Position numbers and translations under genes: made by a program. A DNA stretch of 35,115 bases from Candidatus Thermoplasmatota archaeon (GTDB lineage Archaea; Thermoplasmatota; Thermoplasmata; UBA10834): positions 1-35,115 of the forward strand of contig JAHIZT010000116.1 of NCBI GenBank assembly GCA_018814355.1, read 5' to 3'. How positions within the stretch are numbered: the stretch's first letter is position 1; every line of letters starts with the position of its first letter. Below, piece by piece: positions 20,484 to 31,231 of this stretch. Below the pieces are notes generated by a model, which searched no databases, had not been told where the DNA came from, and saw only the letters and a program-made list of their open reading frames with translations.

Positions 20484-21386
20484 ATGATGGCCGCACTGAT
20501 CGGCTGCTCTGGCTGGTCGTACGACGATTGGGTGGGGAGATTCTACCCGAGCGACCTTGCGAAGAAGAAGGGGGAGTGGTTGTCCTATTACTCCAGATTC
20601 TTCTCCACCGTTGAGATAAACTCCACCTTCTACAGGGCACCGAACGAGTTCATGGTCAAGTCCTGGGTCGAGCGAGGGAAGCAGAAACCAGGATTCGAGT
20701 TTTCAGTCAAGCTGCCCCAGATTGTGACCCACGAATCGATACTCAAATCGGACGGTGAGAAGGCGGCCGCGCAGGCCTCCAGCTTCGAGGACATATGTGT
20801 CAGACCACTTCACGAGGCGGGCCTTCTGGGCGGGGTATTGATTCAGCTGACGCCCTACTTCAGGTTCGAAGGGCGGGAGAGCCTGGGGAAATTGAGGGCG
20901 CTTTTCGACATGCTCGAAACGGATGTCTACGACTACGCTGTTGAATTCAGACACAGGAGCTGGCTGAATGAACGTGGCAACGAGCTGTCCGCAGATGCCC
21001 TGGAGACCCTGCAGGAGTACGGAGTGGCAAACACGATCGTCGATGGTCCTGGCTTCCCCGTCACGCGATCTTTGACGGCGAAGCACGCCTATATCAGATT
21101 CCACGGGCGGAACTACGACATCTGGTTCAAGGACGAGACCGAGGACGACTACAGGCTAAACAGATATGACTACCTCTATCCGCACGACCAGCTGGAATCG
21201 TGGAAGCCCAGAATACAGGAAATAGTCTCTAACTCCGAGACAGCTAGGATATATTTCAACAACCACGGCCGGGCCAAGGCGGTCAAGAACGCCTTTCAGG
21301 TGATGGACCTGCTCAGCGTCCCGCATGAGGAACGGGACATAGACATCCAAGACCAGATGACTCTCGGGAAATTCGGCGGGTCTTAG
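20484..21386 (+). CDS. DUF72 family protein (YecE-like)
   Basis: A 300-residue TIM-barrel-type protein of the DUF72/YecE family. Conserved blocks are easy to see: GCSGWSYDDWVGRFYP at the N-terminus, TVEINSTFYR, FEFSVKLPQIVTHE, YAVEFRHRSW, AYIRFHGRN and YFNNHGRAKAVKNAF. The family is widespread in bacteria and archaea, and its biochemical role is not established. ATG 20484 or 20487 follows a TATA box at leaderless distance. Its stop overlaps the last 4 bases of the convergent rad50 gene. Confidence 0.92.
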   Translation: MMAALIGCSGWSYDDWVGRFYPSDLAKKKGEWLSYYSRFFSTVEINSTFYRAPNEFMVKSWVERGKQKPGFEFSVKLPQIVTHESILKSDGEKAAAQASSFEDICVRPLHEAGLLGGVLIQLTPYFRFEGRESLGKLRALFDMLETDVYDYAVEFRHRSWLNERGNELSADALETLQEYGVANTIVDGPGFPVTRSLTAKHAYIRFHGRNYDIWFKDETEDDYRLNRYDYLYPHDQLESWKPRIQEIVSNSETARIYFNNHGRAKAVKNAFQVMDLLSVPHEERDIDIQDQMTLGKFGGS

Positions 21387-23806
21387 CTGGTCAGTTCGGC
21401 CTTGCTGGTGCCGTCTTCCTGTTCCTCGACCCTGATAACATAGTTCATCGAGTCCTTGATGTCCTCGATGTGCGTTATGAGGAATATCTGCCTGAACTGG
21501 GTGGAGAGCCGGGACAGGGCGATCATGACGCTCCTCTTCCTGTTCGGGTCCTGGGAACCGAATATCTCGTCGAGTATGAGGAAGTTGATCGGGGTGGCTC
21601 CGGTTCTGTCTGCGATTATCCTCGAGATGGCCAGTCTGAGGCTCAGGTTGGCCAGGTCCGATTCTCCACCTGAGAACCTGTCTATCGGATACGCGGTTCC
21701 TTGGTCGTCGATCTGCATCTCGTAGTTCTCGTCCAGTTCGACTCTCGTGTACTTCCCCTCAGTCATCGATTCAAGACCCTTGGAGGTCAGCTCCGAGAGC
21801 ACGGGGGCGATTCTCCCGATCAGGTGATCCTTGAAGTTGACCACGACATCCTCGAGCAGCGCAAGCTCCTCCGCCGCCTTTCTGTCCTTCTCGATGGCCT
21901 TCTTGACCCGAGCGATCTCCTCGATATCTTTGCGCGCGCGCTCAAGTTCGGAATGCGCTTTCTCCTTGGAGCTACCAAGCTTCCGGACCAAATCCTTGAT
22001 CGAACTTAGCTTTGCCGTTTTTTCATCAAGTTCCTTTATTGTTGAATCGTACTGGTTCTTCTTCGGTTCAAGTGTTGCGACGATGATCTTGAACTGCTCC
22101 TCCTCACCGAGCCCCTTGTTGATTGCGTTGCGGGCATCCTCAAGGTCGCGCGCGTAGTGTTCAGTCTGAGTCCTGAGGCTCTTGAGCTCTAGGTATTCAT
22201 CGTGAACCTGCTTGAGCCTGACATGCTCCGCTCCGACCTTTGCGTGCTCCTCGTCCGAGAACTTGATTTCGCCGAGCTCGGAAAGAGTCTTCTTCCTCTG
22301 CGCCAGCCTGACCCTGACCTTTCCAAGCTCCGACTCCATTCCTTGAATCGCGGTCTCCAACTGATTCATCTTCTTGAGCTGCTGGTCTAGGTTTAGCCGC
22401 TTCTTCCCAAGAGCCTCTAGCTTGCTCGCCAAGTCTCTCTTCTCAGCTTCTAGTCCATTGATTGATGTCGAGGCTTCCGCGGCGGTTTTCTGAGCCTCTG
22501 AGGAGCTCTCCGCTAGCTTCCCTACGAGGAGGTCGTAGGCGTCCTCGAGCGTGCGCTCACAGGTCGGACATAAGCCTTGCTTGCCGGCCGCCCTAATCTC
22601 CTCAAGCTTCTTCTGGTCTTTGATTGACGCCTCTCGCCTCTCAGCCATCATCGCTCTCAGCTCGCCGATACGTCCCGAGAACTGAGCGGCCTGGGTCTGG
22701 CAGTCGGACTTGGCCTTCTCCACTTCGTCTATCTTGGACACGACATCTTGGAGGCTGCCGACCGTTGGCCTTGTCTTGGCGAGCTCTTCCAGCCGGCGGG
22801 CCTCCTCCTTCTCATCGGAGGCGATCTCCTGCTGTATCATCCGGGCCTTGTCGTTCTTGGCCTTCTCCCGGTCAAGGGCCTCCTTCTTCTGAGAGGTCTC
22901 CTTCCATCTCCGCTCCTCCTTCTCGAGCTCTGGCAATCTCTGGAGTCTCGCGTTCGTTTCAGCAATCCTGATGGAGATGCTCTTCTCCCTCTTCCTCATC
23001 TCTCCTATCTGCATCTGCTTTGCCTTCAGGTCGCTCGCAGATGAGTTGTACGCATCCACGTCCTTCTTGAGTTCGTCCCTTCGTTTCTTGACGGCCTCGA
23101 ACTCGGCCGCTGCCAGCCTTTCCTTCTCTTCGGCTGTCATGAGCTCCTTGGACGCGGACTCGAAGATGTTGTCCAATTCCGGTATCCTCTCAGCCAACAC
23201 CTTCTGCCGTTCTCTGCCGTCCTCGGTCATGAGAGTCTTCTCTGCGCCCTCGATTCTCGAGAGCGCGTCCTTCCTGTCCGCGCGGACCTCGGTTAAGACT
23301 GAATCGACTCCATCGATCCTCAGCATCCTAAGGACCACCTTCTTCCTCTCACCAGCTGCCACGTTCTGGAGGGCGTTGAGCTCCTTCTGTCTGGCGAAGA
23401 CGGATGTGAAGAACGACTTGTGGTCCATGCCGATCAACTTCTCGACCATGTTCCGGACCGGTTTGTCACCCTCGGCAAGTCGCTTCTCCTGGCTCCAGAG
23501 TTCCGCCCGCATCGTAAGGCTCTTCCCGCCCATCTCGCGGACGATCCTGTATTCCTGTCCTCCGAGTTCGAACTCGAGCAAGGCTGAGCAGGTGTCGCTT
23601 TTGCCCGCTCCTGATCTCCGCACGCTCTCTCTGGAGGTTCTGACGACTTCATCCACATTGCCGAAGAGTGCCCATGCGATCGCCTCAATCACGGTCGTCT
23701 TACCAACGCCGTTGAGGCCTAGGATCCCGACAATTCCGTCTGGGAATTGGAGCTTGAGCTCCTTGAACCGCCTGTAGTTCTTGAGCTCGAAGTAAGATAT
23801 CCTCAT
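21383..23806 (-). CDS. rad50: DNA double-strand break repair ATPase Rad50
   Basis: An SMC-like ATPase of 807 residues that partners Mre11 in sensing and processing DNA ends. Walker A GLNGVGKTT is at residues 30-38. Two long coiled-coil arms rich in Lys/Glu/Arg flank the zinc hook CPTC (Cys413 and Cys416) that joins two molecules. The ABC signature FSGGES begins at 711, Walker B NFLILDE is at 741-747, and the C-terminus contains LITHIED. Length is typical of archaeal Rad50. The start ATG overlaps the mre11 stop as ATGA, so the two are translationally coupled in the order mre11-rad50. The 3' end overlaps the DUF72 gene by 4 bases. Confidence 0.97.
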   Translation of the reverse strand: MRISYFELKNYRRFKELKLQFPDGIVGILGLNGVGKTTVIEAIAWALFGNVDEVVRTSRESVRRSGAGKSDTCSALLEFELGGQEYRIVREMGGKSLTMRAELWSQEKRLAEGDKPVRNMVEKLIGMDHKSFFTSVFARQKELNALQNVAAGERKKVVLRMLRIDGVDSVLTEVRADRKDALSRIEGAEKTLMTEDGRERQKVLAERIPELDNIFESASKELMTAEEKERLAAAEFEAVKKRRDELKKDVDAYNSSASDLKAKQMQIGEMRKREKSISIRIAETNARLQRLPELEKEERRWKETSQKKEALDREKAKNDKARMIQQEIASDEKEEARRLEELAKTRPTVGSLQDVVSKIDEVEKAKSDCQTQAAQFSGRIGELRAMMAERREASIKDQKKLEEIRAAGKQGLCPTCERTLEDAYDLLVGKLAESSSEAQKTAAEASTSINGLEAEKRDLASKLEALGKKRLNLDQQLKKMNQLETAIQGMESELGKVRVRLAQRKKTLSELGEIKFSDEEHAKVGAEHVRLKQVHDEYLELKSLRTQTEHYARDLEDARNAINKGLGEEEQFKIIVATLEPKKNQYDSTIKELDEKTAKLSSIKDLVRKLGSSKEKAHSELERARKDIEEIARVKKAIEKDRKAAEELALLEDVVVNFKDHLIGRIAPVLSELTSKGLESMTEGKYTRVELDENYEMQIDDQGTAYPIDRFSGGESDLANLSLRLAISRIIADRTGATPINFLILDEIFGSQDPNRKRSVMIALSRLSTQFRQIFLITHIEDIKDSMNYVIRVEEQEDGTSKAELTS

Positions 23807-24915
23807 TCCTCTCCCTTCGTGAGGTACGGCAAGCCCATCTCCATCAGCCTGCTCTTCTTATCGTCGGACATGTCCAACGAAGTAACGTATTTCTTGAACT
23901 CGTCCATGAGAAGCCCGATCTGGGTGTCCCCTGCCTGCTTCCCGCCCGCAACGTCGATTCTGTCAACTCTGAGATCGAAGTGCAACGCGCTGGTGCCGAG
24001 CTTCCGTATCGTTGGCATGTCAAGAGCGCGATAGGCGTCCGGGGCGACATTCTTGATGACCAGTCTCACGACCTTCTCGTCGATTGACGCGGAGCTGATC
24101 ATGTCCCTCGCCTCCTTGAGGATCTCCGAGGACGTCAGGTTCGCGGCGTCCAAGACATCCATGTCCAGCATGTCCCTGACCTTGAGCTCGTGAAAAGTGA
24201 CCCTATGAGCGTCCAGATCGACCTCGACAATCCCTTTCTTCTGACCCGCCTCGCTGAAGCTCAGCCGCTCGGTCGATCCAGAGTAGCATATCATCTTGCC
24301 CAGTTCCTTGAACTCGTGATAGTGGCCCAGGGCGACGTAGTCCCACCCAGAATCGATGTTGCTGAACGGCACCGTCTGCTCGTTGAACTCATCCATCTTG
24401 TAAGTATCAGAGTCGGCAATGCCAGCGTGGAGAGCTAAGACGCTCAGCTTCGTATCACGCGTTGGCTTCAAACCTGCGGTTGTCTCTGAGAGTGATGGGC
24501 TGACGGAATGGGGGATCGCATAGACGGTCGCGTCCCCTACAGTGATGGCCTTTCCGCCCGGTTCATGCACTGGATGGACATGTTTGAGGTGTTCGAATAT
24601 CCTGAATATGTTGCCTGTCTCTCGTAGCCTGGGTGTCGAGTGATTCCCCGATATCAGTATCGTCTCGATTCCAGCATCGCTCAATCTGATGAGTTGGCGC
24701 AGTGCGAAGTCGATCGCCCGGTTCTGAGGTCTCACAGTGTCGAAGAGGTCCCCAGAATGAATGACGAAGTCTGGCCTGAGCTCTATGATCTTGTCGAACG
24801 CCTCCTGGAACGCATGGTAGAAGTCCGCCTCCCGCTGGTTTATGCCCTCTGCCACGTCCAGCTTCGAGTACGCGCTGTACCCGAGGTGGCTGTCTGAGAT
24901 GTGAACGACTCTCAA
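23803..24915 (-). CDS. mre11: DNA repair nuclease Mre11
   Basis: A 370-residue calcineurin-like phosphoesterase that, with Rad50, cuts and resects DNA ends using Mn2+. The nuclease motifs are intact: DSHLG (Asp8, His10), GDLFD (Asp56), GNHS (Asn91, His92), ALHAG and GHYH. A capping domain and the short C-terminal Rad50-binding segment follow. The start is TTG at 24913-24915: MRVVHISDSHLG is the expected N-terminus, and the codon overlaps the antiporter stop as TTGA. With ATGA at its other end, this is the middle of a tightly coupled antiporter-mre11-rad50 unit. herA and nurA, frequent archaeal neighbours, are not in the window. Confidence 0.96.
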   Translation of the reverse strand: MRVVHISDSHLGYSAYSKLDVAEGINQREADFYHAFQEAFDKIIELRPDFVIHSGDLFDTVRPQNRAIDFALRQLIRLSDAGIETILISGNHSTPRLRETGNIFRIFEHLKHVHPVHEPGGKAITVGDATVYAIPHSVSPSLSETTAGLKPTRDTKLSVLALHAGIADSDTYKMDEFNEQTVPFSNIDSGWDYVALGHYHEFKELGKMICYSGSTERLSFSEAGQKKGIVEVDLDAHRVTFHELKVRDMLDMDVLDAANLTSSEILKEARDMISSASIDEKVVRLVIKNVAPDAYRALDMPTIRKLGTSALHFDLRVDRIDVAGGKQAGDTQIGLLMDEFKKYVTSLDMSDDKKSRLMEMGLPYLTKGEE

Positions 24916-26798
24916 TGCCTGCCACGCTCCGTCGTCGCTATGATGTCCTCGATCTCTGCGAGGTCGGCCGACGAGTCGCTGAACGGGGGGGCTCCCTTGT
25001 GCTCGAAGATCTCAGCCAGCTTCCTGTCTATCGTCTTCACGGAACCCCAGACCGCGATGATGGCCACAGCGATGATGGATACTGCCAGCAAAGCAAATAC
25101 GAGCCCCTGTTGAACCATTGAGTGAACCAGGGGAAAGACCACTACGAATCCGACGATCATGTAGAACGCGAGAAAGATCCACTTCAGGGCTTTGGCGGTG
25201 TCTTGATACCCGATTTTCTCAGCGGATCTCGTGCTGAGCATGGCCTCGCTCGTGGAGACCTCGATGAGTCTTATGGTCCTGCTCCAGATTCCGAACATGG
25301 CCGATTCTACAACTATCAGCGACCCCGTCACTAGTATGAACAGTATGAGATCCTCGTTGCCCCCCACTAGGTAGGCGTAGTCAGAAATGTCCGGGGCGAT
25401 GCCGACGGCCAATGCGACGACCGATACCATGATGATTATGTACACGAACAGTCTAGAAATATCGCCCCTCATCTCGTTTGACAAGCGGAGAGACGATTTC
25501 GAGCGACTGCGCATGTTCCTTACAACGAGGTTGAAATACGACGCCATGAACAGGAACGATCTGGGCACCTTCTCCTCTATTGCCTTGGTCGCCTTGTCCG
25601 AGAACTTCACGCTATACGGGACAACGAGCGCCGAAATCGTTGTGACAAGGACGATAGTCGGATAGAGGTTGATCTCCGTCCTTATGCTTGTCGGGTGTGC
25701 GGTGGTGCCTATCGCGATGGCAGCTATCATCAGCGAGAACTCCCCAATAGCGATCATGCTCAATCCAGCACCTATGGAGTTCCTTGCGCCGAATCCAAAG
25801 ATGAACGTGGATAAGGTGCAGGAGAACATCTTGGCCATGAGGAAGACCGCAGTGATGATAGCCGTTGTGACTAGGAACCTGGGCTGAGTGAAGAGCGCGA
25901 GGTCCACCAACATCCCAACTGTGATGAAGAACATCGCCCCGAACAGATCCCTGATGGGTTCGATCTTTCTGACGACATCGCCCAAGAACTTCGATTCTGA
26001 GACGATTACGCCCATCACGAACGCACCAATGGCCTCCGAGAATCCGATGTAGCTCGCGAAGACAGCCATCGAGAAGCATAGGCCCAGGACGGTCAGCACG
26101 AGTAGCTCGGTGGAGCGCTGCTTGCCCACATAGTCTACCAGGCGGGGCACCACAGCAAGGCCGAAGACTATGGACGCCGCGACGAAAATGCCCATCTTCA
26201 GGGCCAAATCTGCGAGTTGTCCCGGACTGACGCCTCCCTGGGAGATGAGTCCAGAAACCGCTGCGAGGATGAGGACGGCCGCGAAATCCTCAACTACGAG
26301 CAGCCCAACAATCAGCCGTGCACGCTCGTTGTCGAGCCCTCCCCTCTCCCTTAGCGACCTTACGATTATCATCGTTGAGGCTACTGAGAGCATCGCTCCC
26401 AGCAAAGACGCCTCGAGGGAGGTCCATCCTAGCGCTCTGCCAAGCTGGTATCCTATCCCAATCATGAGGATAATCTCAAGGCTCGCAGCAGCAATCATGC
26501 TCACGCCTATCTTCCTGAGACGTTTGAGGCTGAACTCGAGGCCTATCGTGAAAGTAATCAGAATGATTCCCATCTTGGCAAGCATCTGGATGACAGGTTC
26601 GGCCGAGATCACCATGTCGCCGCTGGTGGACGATACCGCGTACTCAGCCGATATCACGAACGGTCCTGCAACCATCCCTGCTACAAGGTATCCGAGGATC
26701 AGAGGTTGCTTCAGGCGGTTGAAAAGGATGACGATGATGGCCGCGACCGCTATTACGACCGCCATGTTGATGAGGAATCCCGTCTGCAGGTCTAGCAT
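24912..26798 (-). CDS. CPA2/Kef-type cation:proton antiporter with extra C-terminal membrane domain
   Basis: A 628-residue membrane protein. Residues about 1-400 form a Na+/H+ exchanger (Kef) domain with some 12 helices. Family stretches are GIILITFTIGLEFSLKRLRKIG, LLVVEDFAAVLILA (the helix with the acidic ion-binding residue), GFSEAIGAFVMGVIVSES and PIRDLFGAMFFITVGMLVD. Usual Kef proteins end in a cytosolic TrkA-N or TrkA-C domain. Here the C-terminal 200 residues instead contain about four more hydrophobic helices (for example LFVYIIIMVSVVALAVGIA and LALFYMIV-like segments) and an acidic tail. It transports monovalent cations against protons; ion choice is unknown. Its TGA overlaps the TTG start of mre11, so it heads that operon. 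No clear TATA box precedes ATG 26798. Confidence 0.9.
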   Translation of the reverse strand: MLDLQTGFLINMAVVIAVAAIIVILFNRLKQPLILGYLVAGMVAGPFVISAEYAVSSTSGDMVISAEPVIQMLAKMGIILITFTIGLEFSLKRLRKIGVSMIAAASLEIILMIGIGYQLGRALGWTSLEASLLGAMLSVASTMIIVRSLRERGGLDNERARLIVGLLVVEDFAAVLILAAVSGLISQGGVSPGQLADLALKMGIFVAASIVFGLAVVPRLVDYVGKQRSTELLVLTVLGLCFSMAVFASYIGFSEAIGAFVMGVIVSESKFLGDVVRKIEPIRDLFGAMFFITVGMLVDLALFTQPRFLVTTAIITAVFLMAKMFSCTLSTFIFGFGARNSIGAGLSMIAIGEFSLMIAAIAIGTTAHPTSIRTEINLYPTIVLVTTISALVVPYSVKFSDKATKAIEEKVPRSFLFMASYFNLVVRNMRSRSKSSLRLSNEMRGDISRLFVYIIIMVSVVALAVGIAPDISDYAYLVGGNEDLILFILVTGSLIVVESAMFGIWSRTIRLIEVSTSEAMLSTRSAEKIGYQDTAKALKWIFLAFYMIVGFVVVFPLVHSMVQQGLVFALLAVSIIAVAIIAVWGSVKTIDRKLAEIFEHKGAPPFSDSSADLAEIEDIIATTERGRH

Positions 26799-26975
26799 TC
26801 TAACTGCACCATTTCTCAGTGGTTCGGCTCAGCCGGCGGAGGCCTGCTCGCAACGCCTCAGAGAGCGGTATGCGAGTCCGTCCAATCGGTCCATGCGGAC
26901 ACTCTGGCTCACGCATGTGCTTCTTGTTACTTAAGGGTGGCTCTCGATGGAAGTTGTACGACTGCACAGTCCCTG

Positions 26976-27013: not shown

Positions 27014-27934
27014 ATGTCAAACTACAGGACCAGGTTTTTCCAGTCGCCAGACGATCAGCCCGTCCGAGCGAAACTATTCGGGATAGGCAGCGCCGGGTGC
27101 AACATCATCGAAGGAGTGGCATATCCAACAGTGGCATTCTCGACTTCGAGTGCCGACCTGGCCAGGTCGCACGCGGAAAGGAAGGTTCTCATAGGACAGG
27201 ACAGGTTGATCGGAGTCTCCGATTCGGATCCAGACATTGTCAGGCGCCTCCCATCTGTAGTCGGTCATGAACTGTTGGACGTGTTCAACAACACGGAGCT
27301 CGCTTTCCTGATGTGCGGCCTAGGCGGAACCACCGGTAGCCTTGGTGCGAAGATGTTCTCTTCTATCGCGAAAGCAAAGGGGGCGATGGGAGTAGTCTTC
27401 GCGGCGACGCCGTTCTCGGCAGAGAGCTTCAGAAGGAGAGAGGTGGCGTCAAAGACATTGAACGACCTTGAAAAGAGCTGTGCGTTATGCGTGGAGTTCG
27501 ACAACGACAAGCTATCTTCCTTGGCGCCGAACCTGCCGCTCTCAAGGGCATTCGGTATCCTGAACGGTATCATGCTGAGGCCAGTGATGGATCTTTCGAA
27601 GACAATGGCTAGGACCGATCTGAGCGTTTTCAAGCAGATCGTCGGGGATGCCACCTATGGGAGATTCGGGCTGGGGCTAGCCCGAGGAGACGATCGTGTC
27701 GAGAGGGTTGTTGATGAGGCGATGAGCTCACCATGGTTCGACTACGACCTGAATGAAGCGACCGCCGCCGTGACCGTCTATTCCGCTGCCGATCCTTGGG
27801 ACAAAGAGATGGACAAGATACTTGCCGGTATTGAGCAGAAGTTGCCCGGAGCAAGGACACTCTGGGGCATGTATGCGGACCCATCCCTTGGCGAAAGAAT
27901 TCGACTTAGCATCTTGCTCTGCAGAAAGAGATGA
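27014..27934 (+). CDS. divergent FtsZ/tubulin-superfamily protein
   Basis: A 306-residue protein that aligns with FtsZ from end to end: KLFGIGSAGCNIIEG (T1 loop, 20-34), a T4-like glycine loop CGLGGTTGSLGAKMF (101-115), GVVFAATPFSAESFRRR with a following LEKSCALCVEFDNDKL, ARGDDRVERVVDEAMSSP, and the C-terminal GMYADPSLGERIRLSILL. The catalytic features are altered. The T4 loop lacks the strict GGGTGTG. The T7 loop, NxDFADV in FtsZ, is RTDLSVF (200-206), keeping one Asp but losing the second and the Asn. The flexible FtsZ tail is absent. It probably binds nucleotide, but its GTPase activity and polymer formation are doubtful. It diverges from the antiporter gene and has no division-gene neighbour. 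It is a paralogue of FtsZ rather than the main FtsZ; CetZ-like identity is less likely. Confidence 0.85.
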   Translation: MSNYRTRFFQSPDDQPVRAKLFGIGSAGCNIIEGVAYPTVAFSTSSADLARSHAERKVLIGQDRLIGVSDSDPDIVRRLPSVVGHELLDVFNNTELAFLMCGLGGTTGSLGAKMFSSIAKAKGAMGVVFAATPFSAESFRRREVASKTLNDLEKSCALCVEFDNDKLSSLAPNLPLSRAFGILNGIMLRPVMDLSKTMARTDLSVFKQIVGDATYGRFGLGLARGDDRVERVVDEAMSSPWFDYDLNEATAAVTVYSAADPWDKEMDKILAGIEQKLPGARTLWGMYADPSLGERIRLSILLCRKR

Positions 27935-29339: not shown

Positions 29340-30134
29340 TCACGTGTGAGGGCTCGTCTTCCCAGCGAACACCCGTAGCGCATCCTCCTCAAGGAAATGG
29401 AGCTTTCCGGGCACGACGATTGTATGTAGGGGAGGTCCGAAGTCGGTGGATAGGAGGTCGCCCAGAATGCCGGCCCTGACCACGCAGTCTCGCGATCCCG
29501 CCCTCGCAACGGCGCATACCAGAGTGCCCTCCGAAATGATTCCACGTCCCACGCGCCTCTCCATGTCCAGAAGCAGATGCAGCCCCTCATTGGCCGTCAT
29601 GTATCGCGAGTTCTCGGCATCAATGTCGAGGAGAACAAGCGTGTGAAGGTCCCTGGACAAGTTCTCATCAATGACATCGTAAGGGCTTGTTGGCGAATAG
29701 CCCTCCTGTGGGAACGGCAGCGTCGTTGTCCTGCCGAACTTGTAGTGCTGCAGGCCGAGGAGTCCAGGAACCGCGGTCAACACCGACGCACCATGAACGA
29801 CATGTGTCTCTATCCCTGCCTCGGCTGCTCTCAAGCGGAGGTCTACGTGTGTCGTGGCAGTCATGGGGTCTCCGACGATGAGCAGGACGACTCTCTTGTT
29901 CTCGCTCGCCTCCAAGATTCTCTTACCGTCCTCGACAGCCGCCCGGTCAAGGAGCTCGATCCTTTTTCCGGACCTCTTTGCGAGTCTGTCTAGTGATCCC
30001 TCGGACAACGCAGATGTGTAGACTTCCGCAAGGACGAGGTCTGCGGAAAGGATCTCCTTTAGGCCCCTCTCGCTGACACCGTCCTCATCATGAAGGCCCA
30101 GGCCTACGAACACCAGCACGCCTTTCCTCGTCAT
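29340..30134 (-). CDS. dphB: diphthine synthase Dph5
   Basis: A 264-residue SAM-dependent methyltransferase of the tetrapyrrole-methylase fold that trimethylates the modified histidine of elongation factor 2 during diphthamide synthesis. Signature stretches are FVGLGLHDEDGVSERG at the N-terminus, LAEVYTSAL, LLIVGDPMTATTHVDLRLRA, VVHGASVLTAVPGLLGLQHYKFG and YSPTSPYDVIDENLSR. Length is that of archaeal Dph5. ATG 30134 begins six codons inside an open TTG (30152) and gives the usual N-terminus. It diverges from trm5, another translation-related methyltransferase. Confidence 0.95.
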   Translation of the reverse strand: MTRKGVLVFVGLGLHDEDGVSERGLKEILSADLVLAEVYTSALSEGSLDRLAKRSGKRIELLDRAAVEDGKRILEASENKRVVLLIVGDPMTATTHVDLRLRAAEAGIETHVVHGASVLTAVPGLLGLQHYKFGRTTTLPFPQEGYSPTSPYDVIDENLSRDLHTLVLLDIDAENSRYMTANEGLHLLLDMERRVGRGIISEGTLVCAVARAGSRDCVVRAGILGDLLSTDFGPPLHTIVVPGKLHFLEEDALRVFAGKTSPHT

Positions 30135-30193
30135 CGGTCTGTGAATCCTCAATCCGAATGAAGTAACCTTCCATGGGCCCGGGCTCCGATTGC

Positions 30194-30226: not shown

Positions 30227-31231
30227 ATGGACTCCCTTTGCCTAGTGGTTCCGAAGAAGAAGGCCGAACCCGTTCGGCGCAGACTCCTCGAGAAGAGCAT
30301 TCTGCGAAGGGATCTTCAGATCCGCTCAGATGCGAAGAACGTCTACCTGCCCATATCACAGAGGATCGACCTCGGATACCCTGTCGAGACGGCGGGTTTC
30401 AAGGAGGTCGAGGAGCAGGTGACCGACTACCGGGTGCTCGTGGACGTTCCAGAGGAGCTCAGACCACTGCTTCCGTCATCCTATGACACGCTCGGTTCCA
30501 TCGCGCTGGTCAAGATGGCCGATGAGGTGGCGCCGTATGCCCCTCAAATCGGCAAAGCCATCATCGCGACTCAGAAGTCAATAAAGACCGTTTGCATGGA
30601 TTCTGGGATCGTGGATGAATTCAGGACCAGGAACGTGAAAATAGTTGCCGGGGATAAGACGACGGAGACCGTCCATAGAGAGTACGGAATGACCTTCAGG
30701 ATGGACGTAGCCAAGGTCTTTTTCTCTCCCAGGCTGGCCACTGAGAGGGAGATCGTCGCCAGACAGGTTGAAGCGGGCGAGGTAGTCATCGACATGTTCG
30801 CGGGCATCGGACCGTTTTCAGTACTAATTGCCAAGACCCGCTCTCCCAAGGTCGTTTACGCCATTGACCTGAACCCGGAGGCGCTCAGATTCATGAAGGA
30901 GAACATCGCGCTCAACAAGGCGGTGGCTGTAACTCCGATCCTGGGCGATGCGAGGGAGGAGATTGCCAAGCTGGAGAAGGCGGACAGGATAATCATGAAT
31001 CTACCGCATGATGCGAGCGGATTCGTCGCTGACGCGCTCAGGGCCCTGAAGCCTGGCGGGTCAATCCATTATTACGAGATCATGGAGGACGCAGCACTAC
31101 AACCGAGACTCGACGAGATCGCAGATACGGCAAGAAGAGAGGGAAGGGTCGTGAAGGAGCTGGCTAGGAGGAAGGTCAAGAGCTACTCCCCAACCATGAC
31201 CTTCTACGGCCTGGATCTGCAGTTCCTCTGA
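30227..31231 (+). CDS. trm5: tRNA (guanine37-N1)-methyltransferase, Trm5 family
   Basis: A 334-residue class I methyltransferase of the Met-10+/Trm5 family, which makes m1G37 (or wyosine precursors) next to the anticodon and so prevents frameshifting. The N-terminal D2-like region contains SSYDTLGSIALVKM. The catalytic domain shows DMFAGIGPFSVLIAK (SAM-binding motif I), VYAIDLNPEALRFMKENI, GDAREEIAKLEKADRIIMNLPHDA (with the NLP motif) and RKVKSYSPTMTFYGLDL at the C-terminus. Archaeal Trm5a, Trm5b and Trm5c subtypes cannot be separated safely here. It ends 13 bases before the convergent toroid gene B. Confidence 0.93.
   Translation: MDSLCLVVPKKKAEPVRRRLLEKSILRRDLQIRSDAKNVYLPISQRIDLGYPVETAGFKEVEEQVTDYRVLVDVPEELRPLLPSSYDTLGSIALVKMADEVAPYAPQIGKAIIATQKSIKTVCMDSGIVDEFRTRNVKIVAGDKTTETVHREYGMTFRMDVAKVFFSPRLATEREIVARQVEAGEVVIDMFAGIGPFSVLIAKTRSPKVVYAIDLNPEALRFMKENIALNKAVAVTPILGDAREEIAKLEKADRIIMNLPHDASGFVADALRALKPGGSIHYYEIMEDAALQPRLDEIADTARREGRVVKELARRKVKSYSPTMTFYGLDLQFL

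Follow-up and report, generated by a model that had tools for sequence, protein, structure and literature searches.

A conserved Thermoplasmata clade of short FtsZ homologues, predicted to lack the FtsZ-type GTPase site, as candidate regulators of canonical FtsZ

Results

The DNA analysed here (the window, 35,115 nucleotides) is contig C116 in an assembly of 2.06 Mb and 135 contigs; the genome is 97% complete, and its close relatives are uncultured Thermoplasmata/Thermoplasmatota MAGs, for example Euryarchaeota archaeon RBG_13_57_23. An open reading frame on its forward strand (27014–27934) encodes a 306-amino-acid FtsZ homologue that is short, tail-less at both ends and a putative pseudo-GTPase. 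The frame is open further upstream, and a longer GTG start at 26819 was considered and ruled out: most orthologues begin 21–22 residues ahead of their T1 motif, which is the spacing given by the ATG at 27014 and makes this codon the likely start. Divergent from the gene, on the reverse strand, lie genes for a Na+/H+ exchanger family protein (24912–26798; Pfam PF00999), which is found at this place in f1 and several other families, and for two members of a linked repair locus, an Mre11-like calcineurin-type phosphoesterase (23803–24915; PF00149) and a Rad50-like SMC-type ATPase (21383–23806; AAA_23/SMC_N). The conserved downstream neighbours encode a Dph5-like methyltransferase (29340–30152, reverse strand; PF00590) and a Trm5-like tRNA methyltransferase (30227–31231, forward strand; PF02475 and PF18093).

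Both Pfam domains of FtsZ were recognised in the window protein above their gathering scores (Tubulin, PF00091, E = 9.1e-13; FtsZ_C, PF12327, E = 2.7e-8), and the NCBIfam ftsZ model TIGR00065 matched residues 9–301 (E = 9.5e-33), in agreement with an initial annotation that had read the protein as homologous to FtsZ over its length. This match scores 114 bits and misses the equivalog cut-off of 295 bits. Across 47 members of the clade described below, ftsZ was the sole NCBIfam model matched and TIGR00065 the best match for every one, though only as the nearest family; PF00091 was found in all 47 and PF12327 in 32. Among proteins of solved structure, M. jannaschii FtsZ is the closest in sequence (E = 5.5e-30), and an AlphaFold model of the window protein (mean pLDDT 90.9) superposes on FtsZ structures, including M. 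jannaschii FtsZ (2vap), with a TM score of 0.83 at 20–26% identity; the protein is thus predicted to have the FtsZ fold in both domains. Its open reading frame, like those of the clade, stops with the final strand of the globular domain, which bears out the earlier reading that the C-terminal tail for membrane adaptors is missing, and the N-terminal extension is also absent.

When relatives and the class were searched, nearly every genome of the window's family proved to have an orthologue, and homologues turned up in many further families. A 47-sequence profile was applied with a threshold of 250 bits; the highest scores of canonical FtsZs are about 231 bits within the class and 241 bits in the other classes. 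The profile matched 88 of the 400 class genomes sampled, with one match per genome among the matches listed, in 13 family groups (f1, f2, f7, f15, f19, f20, f23, f24, f27, f29, f30, f32 and f33). Two further short members, in genomes G163 (f30) and G026 (f8), fell in the score margin below 250 bits. Outside the class, the profile gave no comparable match in about 250 genomes of the same phylum. Within it, the short FtsZ is missing from many families that have canonical FtsZ, so FtsZ-based division can do without it. Phage proteins gave matches of about 25% identity over most of the query, at least one of them annotated as FtsZ, and none resembles the clade.

In a tree of 111 sequences, a single branch (SH-aLRT 100, length 1.56) split 60 short proteins from 51 canonical ones, the latter including M. 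jannaschii FtsZ1 and S. aureus FtsZ. An artefact of the changed loops was ruled out, since the clade remained separate with 100/100 support in an 84-sequence tree built without the T2, T3, T4 and T7 columns. The short tail-less FtsZs of Thermoplasmata are therefore a clade of single origin set apart from canonical FtsZ. Clustering with a characterised FtsZ that shares the same loops, which would have spoken against the initial annotation, was not found: M. jannaschii FtsZ1, S. aureus FtsZ and the canonical Thermoplasmata FtsZs all stand apart. Pairwise dN/dS lay between 0.07 and 0.14 in five lineages of the clade; these values indicate strong purifying selection and a distinct function under selection, and they exclude decay.

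Some short sequences lie further out. Two very divergent short FtsZs, L056:5917–6837 (T4 loop GLGGRTTSVISP) and L064:890–1894 (T4 loop GLGGLSGGWGAV), form long branches of unsure placement in the 111-sequence tree; the former comes from an archaeal MAG (isolate Dive96_bin4.290) that is not among the named relatives. In the complete 1,486,778-bp genome G032:C1 (class family f14), a 265-amino-acid reduced relative (L165:6388–7182) with GLGGVLG and SPW motifs adjoins a tRNA-methyltransferase-like gene, and is possibly a far clade member in a culturable organism.

To compare the nucleotide-binding and catalytic loops, 58 clade members were aligned with 43 canonical FtsZs, and alignment positions are given in S. 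aureus FtsZ numbering; all motifs lie on the forward strand. Three elements of the pocket are retained: firstly, the T1 loop GIGSAGCN (residues 23–30; 27080–27103), with glycines 20 and 23 in 58/58 clade members and Asn25 in 55; secondly, the T5/H5 segment PFSAESFRRR (residues 133–142; 27410–27439), with the equivalents of Glu139 and Arg143 each kept in all 58; thirdly, the T6 motif NDKL (residues 164–167; 27503–27514), with the base-contacting Asn166 equivalent likewise in all 58. Phe183 is kept in 57 members. By contrast, the T2 loop STSSAD (residues 43–48; 27140–27157) has lost the Mg2+/K+ residues N44, D46 and Q48, which are S, S and A in the window protein and mostly changed across the clade. 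The T3 loop GVSDSDPDI (residues 67–75; 27212–27238) has lost its GAG motif and is one residue shorter, with Gly70 and Gly72 both gone; Gly70 is deleted in 58/58 members and Gly72 is absent from the clade's common residues.

The T4 glycine loop reads GLGGTTGS (residues 102–109; 27317–27340), with Thr in place of the third Gly of GGGTG. This is the GLGGTTGSLG of the initial annotation, and G108 is replaced in all 58 members. As a side observation, the replacement is Glu in 31 of the 58, and Glu here could be imagined as a gamma-phosphate mimic, an idea that does not extend to the Thr of the window protein. At the T7 site, RTDLSV (residues 200–205; 27611–27628), N208 and D213 are lost and five residues are deleted before the Asp: residues 205–209, Asn208 with them, are deleted throughout the clade, Asp213 is absent from its common residues, and an Asp aligns with D210 in 51/58 members, the window protein among them. 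The T4 and T7 losses had been named in the initial annotation, down to the missing Asn and second Asp, and both stand; the five-residue shortening of T7 and the loss of T2 and T3 had been missed.

No clade member (0/58) carries GGGTG(T/S)G and NxDxxD loops, and N208, D210, D213, G70, G72 and G108 are intact in 43/43 canonical FtsZs. The T3, T4 and T7 changes are thus present in 58/58 clade members and 0/43 canonical FtsZs, and the losses are not due to chance. The clade also has a signature of its own, SPWFD (residues 239–243; 27728–27742), where the canonical sequence is SPLLx; S239, P240 and W241 are invariant across the 47-row clade alignment. In S. aureus FtsZ filaments, the arrangement of Mg2+ and K+ depends on N44/D46 and N208, and the catalytic water is held in place by D210, D213 and G72 (PMC8936486). 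Judged by this alignment, each of the two sides of the composite active site has lost chemistry and the base- and ribose-side pocket stays; without the T2, T3 and T7 chemistry, we predict that an FtsZ-type GTPase site cannot be completed.

The gene neighbourhood is widely shared. Among 58 loci with context, 39 have mre11/rad50 and/or herA within about 6 kb in divergent orientation, in 10 families (f1, f2, f8, f15, f20, f23, f29, f30, f32 and f33), and Mre11 is the directly adjacent gene in several of them. Downstream, dph5, trm5 and a dCTP-deaminase-like gene (dcd) recur in seven families (f1, f2, f20, f29, f30, f32 and f33). The repair linkage has been lost in f7 and f19 and was not seen in f24 and f27. 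In f7 (L118:2959–5430 and L121:7409–10042), the gene adjoins a large conserved NosD/beta-helix protein instead. The Mre11-Rad50 linkage is common to both main groups of the tree, on either side of the deepest clade split, and is therefore old. This shared neighbourhood firmly supports the orthology of clade members and, together with the T3 and T7 deletions, which are the same in 58/58 members, disfavours convergent loss in several lineages; it supports a functional link to the repair genes weakly, since gene order may simply be conserved.

The same genome encodes six further FtsZ-superfamily proteins. Five have both GGGTG and NxDxxD, three of them on contig C46, one on C72 and one on C121, and SepF is encoded as well. 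The initial annotation had proposed looking for a normal ftsZ elsewhere in the genome; there are five intact copies plus SepF, so the cell need not divide with the window protein as its sole FtsZ. The three C46 genes lie within 7 kb (C46:20365–27163), two of them adjacent, and the Thermoplasmata genomes checked have 5–8 FtsZ-superfamily genes each. The sixth protein, a second odd FtsZ (C82:30477–31256; also L005 1387–2214 and L177 4387–5214), has a GTPase domain intact from T1 to T4 (GGGTGTG), and its 276-amino-acid open reading frame ends after H7 with a short tail and lacks both the T7 loop and FtsZ_C; this protein and the window protein look like mirror images of each other. The C82 protein has strong matches in about 45 class genomes (families f1, f20, f29, f30 and f32) and weaker ones, of 240–300 amino acids, in f6, f8, f12 and f22. 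A strict pairing of the clade with this C-domain-less type was rejected: the distributions overlap and neither requires the other.

Discussion

By its fold and FtsZ_C domain, the window protein belongs to the FtsZ branch of the FtsZ/tubulin superfamily. Going by its sequence, it lies outside the cell-division FtsZ equivalog, for which score, T4/T7 loops and tail all fail. With archaeal FtsZ1/FtsZ2, represented by M. jannaschii FtsZ1 (1fsz/2vap/1w5a), the clade shares the two-domain fold and the T1/T5/T6/H7 pocket residues; unlike them, it lacks the T2/T3/T4/T7 catalytic chemistry, the N-terminal extension and the C-terminal tail, and forms a separate clade on a long branch. CetZ, defined as lacking the FtsZ_C Pfam domain, is a poor fit for a protein that has this domain and matches NCBIfam ftsZ only, a comparison made by domain content and family models. 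FtsZl1 and FtsZl2 are divergent families of the FtsZ superfamily, distinct from division FtsZ, and FtsZl1 is defined by an FtsZ-like N-domain, a coiled coil, a helical C-domain and a GGGTG motif (PMC2875224). These families carry coiled-coil or ~300-amino-acid extra C-terminal regions along with GGGTG, whereas the clade keeps the FtsZ C-terminal domain with nothing added; FtsZl1 identity was ruled out for the window protein, a 306-residue protein with FtsZ_C, a changed T4 and neither coiled coil nor helical C-domain.

The nearest published analogue is N. maritimus Nmar_1262, an archaeal FtsZ homologue that has lost T7 and an intact T4 and forms no polymers in yeast (PMC3684127). Compared by description and motif, both are T4/T7-degraded archaeal FtsZs, but the T4 of Nmar_1262 is AGKAGSA against GLGGxTGS in the clade, and its lineage is thought to divide by Cdv whereas the genome studied here retains intact FtsZs. 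Two accounts of archaeal FtsZ evolution deal with FtsZ1, FtsZ2, groups resembling CetZ and divergent FtsZs of crenarchaea (PMC9871819, PMC8178401), and the sections consulted do not mention a short FtsZ clade. We found no prior description of the clade in the literature searched.

We propose that the clade is a conserved family of FtsZ-related pseudo-GTPases that acts on canonical FtsZ by capping or sequestering it, a reading to which we give a little less than an even chance; a clade member is probably a controller of FtsZ and not a building block of the division ring. FtsZ filaments are taken to elongate at their T7-exposed end (PMC8936486), and SulA, MciZ and MinC bind the T7-side face of FtsZ (PMC11938149). 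The short FtsZ would dock, through its retained nucleotide-side surface, on this exposed face at the growing end of canonical FtsZ; with its own T7 side truncated, it would accept no further subunit and support no hydrolysis in turn. Canonical FtsZ would thereby be capped or sequestered at the same T7/C-terminal face as by SulA, MciZ and MinC (PMC11938149), whose folds are unrelated to FtsZ, whereas the inhibitor proposed here would derive from FtsZ itself. Conservation across the two faces is mixed: T1, T4, T5, T6 and H6–H7 are conserved and T2, T3, H8, S9 and H10 are not, the conserved T1/T4/T5/T6 share a face with the non-conserved T2/T3, and H10 varies among the canonical FtsZs, too. A clean signature of a kept top face and a lost bottom face was looked for and, conservation being mixed, is not used as proof. 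Thus, where the initial annotation had offered a non-hydrolysing regulator, a capping subunit or a separate family, the separate clade and the predicted absence of an FtsZ-type GTPase site hold, while capping is what we infer. Plant ARC3 offers a parallel to the proposed role: it is an FtsZ-derived regulator of FtsZ assembly, though organellar, larger and with extra repeats.

We considered whether the protein instead co-assembles within FtsZ filaments as a non-hydrolysing subunit that slows turnover or alters curvature. S. aureus FtsZ with engineered T7 replacements stays closed and monomer-like, which favours capping or sequestering, yet in crystals it packs as straight filaments all the same (PMC5414002), so longitudinal contact may still be possible with a short T7; the fold retained on both domains and the kept pocket core (T1, E139, R143, N166 and F183) also fit. 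However, the T2, T3, T7 and S9 contact residues are unconserved, and any one of the substitutions N208L, D210N, D213N and R143Q is already enough to suppress the assembly of S. aureus FtsZ (PMC8936486); we regard co-assembly as rather unlikely. A similarly modest chance falls to a protein that has left division for nucleotide sensing or scaffolding with Mre11-Rad50-HerA-NurA in break repair or chromosome handling. Such a role would account for a divergent mre11/rad50/herA linkage that spans the deepest split of the clade, and for an SPW signature and a pocket core that stay conserved although the polymer chemistry is gone, but it sits poorly with the four families in which this linkage is lost or unseen, and the likewise conserved dph5/trm5/dcd linkage may mean general gene-order conservation.

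That this is an ordinary FtsZ1, FtsZ2 or CetZ, still hydrolysing GTP by a shifted geometry, is very improbable: the water-holding G72 and D213 and the metal-site N44/D46 and N208 are gone from the window protein, and no tree groups it with canonical FtsZ, even if an Asp persists at the D210 position in 51/58 members along with E139, R143 and N166. A functionless, decaying copy might be suspected from the lost catalytic residues and tails, but is barely credible given one such match per genome over 88 genomes (among the matches listed) and no frameshifts in the open reading frames examined; the selection test refutes a pseudogene. Capping or sequestering of canonical FtsZ is thus the best supported of the readings considered, though unproven.

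Conserved pseudo-enzymes usually regulate their active relatives, and here a pseudo-FtsZ is kept in many families of one class, alongside intact FtsZs. More speculatively, the long linkage to mre11-rad50-herA-nurA suggests that it may be used when DNA breaks are processed. On this fuller version, which we consider unlikely, the single-copy, GTPase-less FtsZ would cap or sequester FtsZ during DNA-break processing, as an FtsZ-derived checkpoint and archaeal counterpart of SulA. To our knowledge, the connection between repair and division is poorly known in archaea, and if true this would connect DNA-break repair with division in a way that can be tested. If the protein is a regulator, archaeal division would gain a type of regulator undescribed in the literature searched. 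The clade also tests how much of the FtsZ interface can go while the fold stays under strong selection.
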